Positions 30,569 through 32,302 of a stretch of 33,259 nucleotides of DNA are shown one piece after another. Both the position numbers and the translations under genes were made by a program. The stretch lies in NCBI GenBank assembly GCA_947303695.1, contig CAMYYX010000002.1:1-33259 (forward strand), written 5' to 3'. Source of the stretch: an uncultured Prevotellaceae bacterium (lineage in GTDB: Bacteria; Bacteroidota; Bacteroidia; Bacteroidales; Bacteroidaceae). Numbering within the stretch: the stretch's first letter is position 1; every line of letters starts with the position of its first letter. The notes under the pieces are model-generated. The model did not search any database. It had not been told where the DNA came from and worked only from the letters and a program-made list of their open reading frames with translations.

Positions 30569-32302
30569 TTAATTGTTTAACAGTTCTCTTGCGTTGTTCA
30601 TTGCTGCCTCTGTAAGGGTTGAGCCGCTCAGCATGTGAGCTATCTCTTCAATCCGTTGCGTTGCAGAGAGCTCGGTGATGTGGGTCAGGGTCGTATCGGC
30701 TTCTTCCTCCTTGTACACTTTGTAGTGGTGCTCACCTTTGGCAGCAATCTGCGGCAGGTGGGTGATGCTGATGACCTGACAACCTTGTTGACTCATGCCT
30801 TGCATCATCAATGCCATCTGTTCGGCTATCTTACCTGACACACCTGTATCGATTTCATCAAAGATGATGGTAGGAAGTTTCGATGCGCTGGCTATCAAGG
30901 CTTTCAGCGAAAGCATCACTCGTGCAATCTCTCCACCTGATGCAATCTGCGAAAGCGGTTGTGTGGGTACGTTCTTGTTGGCAGAGAACCAGAACTCCAC
31001 CTTGTCCATACCGCTCCATCCTGGTTCGGCTGTCTGAGCCAGGTTTACTTCGAATCTCACGTTTGGCATACCCAGTGTGATGAGTCGGCTGATGATGTCT
31101 TCTTCCAACGCTTTCTTGGCTGTCAGTCGCATCTCTGTCAGTCGCTTGGCTTGAGTCATTACCGCTTCCTTAGAGGCGTTCAGTTCGTGTTCCAGCTCAG
31201 CTATATGTTCTTCGCTGTGATCAATGAGGGTCAATTGCTGCTCCAATTCCTTTTGCAGTTTTATCAACTCGCTCACATTGTCCACATGATGTTTCTTTTG
31301 TAGTGAGTAGAGGGTGTCCAGACGTTCTTCCACCTGTTCCAGCCGCTGAGGGTCGTATTCCACTTCATCGGTTTTTTGCCCGATTTCATCGGCAATATCT
31401 TTCAGTTCGATGTAGCAACTTTCCAATCGTTGTGTCAGTTCCTCAGTTTTGCTATATACCTTGCTGGCGCTTTGAAGTGCTGCGAGGCCTTGCTTCACAC
31501 GTTCCAGCGTATTGGCATCCTCGTCAGCTTCCAGACATTGTTGAGCCATATACAGGCTTTTCTTGATTTCCTCGGCATGACTCAGCATCTCCTGTTCTGC
31601 CTCCAACTCTTCTTGTTCTCCTTCCACGAGTGCTGCTTCAGCCAGTTGTTGAGCCTGAAACCGTAGGTAGTCCTCTTGGTCGTGACTCTGCTGTGCCTGT
31701 TCCTTCAGCTCCTTCAATTGCTGTCGAATGCTTAGGAAGTGTGAATAGCGCTCAACGTAATCCTTCACCTCATTGGCATCGTGAGCCAACGTGTCCAGCA
31801 GGTTCAACTGGAAGTCCTCTTTACCCAACAGCAGATTCTGGTGTTGCGAATGAATGTCGATGAGCTGATTGCCTATCTCTTTCAAGAGCGATAGGTTGAC
31901 AGGTGTGTCGTTGATAAATGCACGGCTTTTGCCTTCTGCAGTCAATTCGCGTCGGATGATACAATGCGACCCGTCGAAATCAAGGTCGTTTTGAGCAAAG
32001 AAGTCTAAGACCCTCTCCCCGCTCTCCCTTAAAGGGCGAGAGCTTAAGTTTTGAGAGGTCAAGTCCTCCTTTAAGGAGGATTTAGAAGGTCCAAGATCGA
32101 ACTCTGCTTCGATCATGCATCTCCTCTCGCCGGCCTTGATTGCTTTCATGTCTGCACGTTCGCCAAGTAGCAGCCCTATAGCTCCTAGAATGATGGATTT
32201 ACCAGCACCGGTCTCGCCAGTGATGACAGAAAATCCTGAATGCCAATTGATGTCCAGCTGATCAATCAGCGCATAGTGCTCAATATGTAACGATTGTATC
32301 AA
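30569..32302 (-). CDS. recN: DNA repair protein RecN
   Basis: 'MIQSLHIEHYALIDQLDINW...VITGETGAGKSIILGAIGLLLGERAD', 'IASGGEIARVMLSLKAL', 'IIFDEIDTGVSGKIAEQM', 'VISITHLPQIAAKGEHHYKV'. TTG start codon. Confidence 0.96.
   Translation of the reverse strand: MIQSLHIEHYALIDQLDINWHSGFSVITGETGAGKSIILGAIGLLLGERADMKAIKAGERRCMIEAEFDLGPSKSSLKEDLTSQNLSSRPLRESGERVLDFFAQNDLDFDGSHCIIRRELTAEGKSRAFINDTPVNLSLLKEIGNQLIDIHSQHQNLLLGKEDFQLNLLDTLAHDANEVKDYVERYSHFLSIRQQLKELKEQAQQSHDQEDYLRFQAQQLAEAALVEGEQEELEAEQEMLSHAEEIKKSLYMAQQCLEADEDANTLERVKQGLAALQSASKVYSKTEELTQRLESCYIELKDIADEIGQKTDEVEYDPQRLEQVEERLDTLYSLQKKHHVDNVSELIKLQKELEQQLTLIDHSEEHIAELEHELNASKEAVMTQAKRLTEMRLTAKKALEEDIISRLITLGMPNVRFEVNLAQTAEPGWSGMDKVEFWFSANKNVPTQPLSQIASGGEIARVMLSLKALIASASKLPTIIFDEIDTGVSGKIAEQMALMMQGMSQQGCQVISITHLPQIAAKGEHHYKVYKEEEADTTLTHITELSATQRIEEIAHMLSGSTLTEAAMNNARELLNN
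32006..32092. repeat. Palindromic repeat element inserted in frame within recN
   Basis: Nested inverted repeats: gctctcccttaaagggcgagagc, tcctcctttaaggagga, gaccctctc/gagaggtc. Encodes GPSKSSLKEDLTSQNLSSRPLRESGERVL, which interrupts the RecN N-terminal domain. Confidence 0.75.

Follow-up and report, generated by a model that had tools for sequence, protein, structure and literature searches.

Most of what is known about palindromic repeats that encode protein concerns the Rickettsiales, other bacteria contributing scattered cases of REP elements. Rickettsia palindromic elements (RPEs) are dispersed palindromes that lie in frame within unrelated genes and are translated (PMC10969869, PMC3733652), and a 2024 review leaves open whether the insertion of palindromic repeats has also shaped the proteins of other lineages (PMC10969869). 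Among TnpA-REP proteins, a Bacteroidetes class is described whose structures are atypical (PMC6006769). The open-access papers that were searched do not describe palindromes lying in frame within genes of Bacteroidota, a result that does not by itself prove novelty.

The window analyzed here, a stretch of 33,259 nucleotides from an uncultured Prevotellaceae bacterium, carries a recN gene (30569–32302, minus strand) encoding 577 amino acids from a TTG start. The ORF matches Pfam SMC_N and the solved RecN chains 4ad8 and 4aby, and is otherwise intact, containing a single foreign stretch, GPSKSSLKEDLTSQNLSSRPLRESGERVL, flanked by CMIEAEFDL and DFFAQNDLDFDG (FDL and DFF junctions). RecN is a conserved repair protein and not an essential one, contrary to the first-pass annotation, which had called recN an essential-type ORF. 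The foreign stretch corresponds to positions 32006–32092 on the minus strand, comprising 87 nucleotides or 29 codons without a stop in the RecN frame, so that the ORF runs unbroken across it; its core is an 83-bp palindrome. The in-frame palindromic insert proposed from the sequence is real. The proposal of an 87-nucleotide in-frame insertion stands as regards its presence and its frame, but not as a clean addition. A codon alignment with five close orthologs and a protein alignment with 13 orthologs show that the insert occupies the place of 21 native nucleotides, a net gain of 66 nucleotides (22 codons).

Orthologs of RecN were found by protein search in 14 of the 17 genomes of the genus, including the host genome, and the protein alignment revealed that all 13 others lack the insert. 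Of the two observations that the first-pass annotation named as refuting its reading, an insert conserved among orthologs and a segment absent from the rest of the host genome, neither was made, and the reading is supported. The closest orthologs (83–84% identical) have about seven native codons at this site, such as SDQLIDD, and the aligned position in Deinococcus RecN is a short stretch flanked by two better matched segments. The single-sequence structure model of RecN, with a pLDDT of 41, is too poor for placing the loop. The RecN of a related species (G004, contig C9, locus L035) carries a different palindrome-like in-frame insert, MKGQPLPPPSPQGEGAQGGEKSSSRS, slightly upstream of the site in the window.

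The palindromic core (32009–32091) is an 83-bp dimer with imperfect 8-bp inverted ends, GACCCTCT and AGAAGGTC, its limits being set by a full-length 88% copy elsewhere in the host genome (G000:C52:8645-8727); these terminal repeats match at 7 of 8 positions in the RecN copy and perfectly in the C52 copy. Half-element A (32009–32047, plus strand) consists of a head GACCCTCTCCCC, a hairpin GCTCTCCCTTAAAGGGCGAGAGC, and a TTAA tail, and many lone copies of exactly the same length occur in the host genome. The inverted half-element B (32059–32091, minus strand, GACCTTCTAAATCCTCCTTAAAGGAGGACTTGA) reads GACCTTCTAAAT-CCTCCTTAAAGGAGG-ACTTGA, and is found both as lone copies and paired with other halves. 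The two hairpin halves face outward, and the remainder between them (32048–32058) forms a linker. Copies occur either as a lone half, of about 39 or 33 bp, or as dimers of 83–105 bp with their heads outward, and their ends and half-element lengths are constant; those collected share the head GAYCCTCTCCCC, most of which was itself required by the collecting pattern. A stop-free stretch of 29 codons is not rare by itself, but five of the six frames of the complete element are closed, and the single open one is that used by RecN and by a tetratricopeptide repeat (TPR) protein. The insert strand folds with −37.7 kcal/mol, compared with −29.9 ± 3.9 kcal/mol for shuffled sequences (z = −2.0). Such a fold would be no more than mildly unusual if taken alone; the decisive evidence is that the segment is repeated in the genome. 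Covariation in the helix of half A is above that of shuffles but not clearly above that of slid controls, and Rfam contains no family that scores above its gathering threshold for the element, the only match being a chance one of 7.2 bits. No target-site duplication is evident at the compared sites, where the orthologs are too diverged to show an exact empty site.

BLASTN of the segment against the host genome, a check suggested by the first-pass annotation, gave 33 matches in an assembly that is fragmented and 51.5% complete; the segment recurs mostly between genes rather than being confined to recN. Beyond the RecN copy itself, these include one 83-bp copy (88%, E = 3.6e-24) and 13 more at E ≤ 7e-8, and many are lone copies of half A or half B. 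The matches represent about 24 sites, six of which lie in frame within long ORFs: RecN, the TPR protein, which holds a full-length 88% copy in the same frame as RecN, the N-terminus of RmlB, and three places in one TonB-dependent receptor. Several frames are used across the host-genome copies, and the remaining copies are intergenic or overlap gene ends. The in-gene share is well under the coding density (6 of 22 versus an assumed 88%, 6.7e-11, the later site count being nearer 24), as expected if most hits in genes were lost; by the counting method, copies in already broken genes would score as intergenic. At several intergenic loci (L008, L013, L016, L061, L064, and L076), the copies overlap gene ends, and the repeat may supply the stop codon. 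One host copy is composite, with a second palindrome inside half A. This second palindrome (TTCAATrGTCTTTAyACCCC..CCCCCGTyATCGGGGGrCAGAAA) is nested in repeat copies of two genera (L016, L017, L021, and L022 in the host genome; L170, L180, and L201 in genus g30), and at L180 it appears to be read in frame.

Within the genus, the element is present in 7 of 17 genomes at E ≤ 1e-5, and a 61-nucleotide query located it at 57 places within those seven; the genomes compared are mostly incomplete assemblies, and several counts depend on the loci fetched. Among the proteins that contain it in frame are CTP synthase, an FGE-like protein, TPR lipoproteins, two membrane proteins of M56 type, and secreted proteins, the last at their C-termini. 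Some inserts are common to two to four species at the same site, indicating that they have been inherited and tolerated. One loop of CTP synthase is filled by this element in G014 and by another repeat in G004, whereas G006, G007, and G012 keep it short and native. At site 1 of the TonB receptor, three species carry this element, two carry a 7-nucleotide tandem repeat, and one has a native-looking loop; site 3 holds several unrelated repeats, and 18 native nucleotides are missing at site 2. Inserts fall in loops and inter-domain linkers, and a given loop may contain unrelated repeats in sister species. Tandem repeats of 7 nucleotides (CTTTCAA type), which read as KLSTLNSQLST, are found at L125–L131, L147, and L148 in loops of the TonB receptor and of an M56-type protein that contain palindromes in other species. 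In the five members compared (L128 and L140–L143), a single ORF encodes both CarA and CarB, joined by a repeat-like linker that differs by species. A lipoprotein region with an insert is nearly identical between G004 and G013 (L096 and L102), as is the DNA upstream of it, which hints at a recent transfer of the gene together with its insert.

The element is not restricted to this genus. At least 6 of 251 genomes of the family, from five other genera, match it, a lower bound because the survey scored the best three candidates per genome. The in-frame carriers in these other genera are a GH2 enzyme, a FecR-like protein, a UDP-glucose dehydrogenase, and a 4-alpha-glucanotransferase, and the peptides resembling SSRPLRESGERV that the first-pass annotation had mentioned from other proteins indeed occur both in the clade of the host and in other genera. 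In the genus g30, 18 of the 20 copies examined lie within long ORFs, representing 14 distinct sites after orthologs are joined. Eleven of these 14 share a frame that reads ..EALPLTGERGEGL (binomial 4e-5 if four frames are taken as equally likely), a count that was made post hoc and with orthologs joined by eye. The full g30 dimer encodes about 35 residues, RPTPNPSREGGEAG.PALERSEALPLTGERGEGL, and this peptide was matched in 3 of 13 g30 genomes, mostly in ORFs of 293–1272 amino acids; a peptide search of 394 genomes of the order, a set that contained no positive control, gave no match. The g30 host proteins include cysteinyl-tRNA synthetase (CysRS), a YgiQ-type radical SAM protein with two inserts, FeoA–FeoB, a CobB-like protein, and GH2, GH43, and GH95 enzymes. 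The insert sits between Pfam domains in the GH2, FeoA–FeoB, and CobB-like proteins; at L186, the repeat is the linker of the FeoA–FeoB ORF. Solved structures of CysRS, CTP synthase, and UDP-glucose dehydrogenase are without the insert.

REP elements usually have a Y1 transposase as their partner, and for GTAG REPs a RAYT gene bordered by the same repeat is expected. A dedicated RAYT was considered as the mobilizing enzyme and rejected, since the inspected typical Y1 genes of the genus either have different palindromes on their flanks (GCCCCAAAGGGGCGA type in L051 and L052) or lack this element. No RAYT (Y1) gene flanked by the element was found in the genomes searched, that of the host being about half complete, and three genomes with 9–13 element copies each (G091, G101, and G156) gave no Y1 match. 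The Y1 transposase genes at L051:1400-2060 and L052:1330-2140, with palindromes of their own (GCCCCAAAGGGGCGACATA type), represent a separate REP–RAYT pair of the genus. A phage or plasmid vehicle was likewise rejected, with zero matches in 50,697 phage and 72,556 plasmid records.

The RecN insert very probably belongs to a dispersed family of REP/RPE-like palindromic repeats, non-autonomous in nature, whose copies survive inside genes if the frame and the loop allow it. Repetition, dimer anatomy, in-frame positions, absence from orthologs, cross-species inheritance of some inserts, and the frame bias in g30 all argue for this reading, whereas the failure to find a mobilizing enzyme argues against it. 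The element would have arrived at recN as DNA, carried there by a trans-acting enzyme or copied in through template switching. Most copies striking genes at harmful places would be lost, and those surviving in genes would combine a compatible length and an open frame with a site in a surface loop or inter-domain linker, and would yield on translation a peptide of about 12–36 residues, hydrophilic and probably flexible, while the host protein stays functional. RecN with the insert presumably still works, and the insert peptide would be a tolerated loop without a function of its own; on the simplest reading, the palindromic repeat is probably selfish and non-autonomous. The native codons missing at the RecN and TonB sites are not predicted by simple insertion, and no target-site duplication was seen. 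These missing bases (21 nucleotides at RecN and 18 at TonB site 2), together with the several kinds of repeat found per loop, keep template switching or ectopic gene conversion a serious rival to transposition, in which a stalled fork copies a hairpin-rich repeat and overwrites a short target stretch, so that tolerant loops are refilled by the repeats of the genome. The three carriers without a Y1 transposase, and the unrelated repeats, including 7-nucleotide tandem repeats, in the same loops of sister species, are in keeping with such a process. However, constant ends and half-element lengths would be typical of a discrete mobile unit, and the loops are variable among orthologs anyway, so that the missing bases may reflect later deletion; this origin is judged the less likely one.

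The acceptance of unrelated repeats by the same loops speaks also against the idea that the peptide itself is useful, for instance as a flexible linker, with the palindrome kept for its coding. The frame bias of g30 (11 of 14 sites, 4e-5), the conservation of several inserts across species, and the linker positions would suit a selected module, but the frame count is post hoc, tolerance of only the mildest peptide would also yield a bias, and the host genome uses several frames and keeps most copies between genes, so that selection for the peptide seems unlikely. Those intergenic copies, often directly behind a gene or supplying its stop codon as REPs do (PMC3733652), could instead point to a role of the RNA or DNA structure in mRNA stability, termination, or supercoiling, with the in-gene copies as by-products; this role is judged improbable, because it leaves the high in-gene share in g30 unexplained, and helix covariation in half A is weak against slid controls, with no Rfam match. 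An assembly artefact or contamination might be suspected in so fragmented and incomplete a host assembly, but is scarcely credible when recN is in frame across the insert, and when same-site inserts recur in independent assemblies of several species and other genera behave alike. Returning to the dispersed palindromic repeat, a broader picture can be offered tentatively for the whole family, possible though short of an even chance: unrelated repeat DNAs may regularly supply loop and linker sequence, loops of core enzymes may be refilled independently in sister species, some genera may hold nearly all copies in frame with a preferred frame, and the spread may proceed without a dedicated Y1 transposase.

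In practice, inserts of this kind can lead gene annotation, the prediction of structures, and the assignment of orthologs astray. The conserved enzymes affected here are CysRS, CTP synthase, RecN, and UDP-glucose dehydrogenase, several of which are directly testable as purified proteins or in cultured relatives.

Among known systems, BrickBuilt of Porphyromonas and other MITEs of Bacteroidota are, like the present element, short, bounded by inverted ends, and noncoding in origin, but BrickBuilt is reported to be strictly intergenic (PMC10969869), and for the present element neither a parent transposase nor a target duplication was seen. REPs and their dimers (BIMEs) share with it an unpaired conserved head followed by a hairpin, an occurrence as singles and head-out dimers, and a location behind genes or within them, many of the intragenic REPs lying in genes for DNA repair (PMC3733652), whereas its head is GAYCCTCTCCCC instead of GTAG or CGTC and no RAYT was found beside it. 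The Wolbachia elements (WPEs) lie in frame and stop-free in the repair and recombination genes addA, addB, and priA (PMC4224334), but belong to another phylum, and the present element consists of halves and dimers with a GAYCCTCT head. RPEs are likewise dispersed palindromic repeats in frame in unrelated genes; they are about 150 bp long (PMC10969869) and from another phylum, and in the present case unrelated kinds of repeat share loops. The analogy with Rickettsia drawn in the first-pass annotation holds for the mode of action, that of a dispersed palindrome in frame in unrelated conserved genes and absent from their orthologs.
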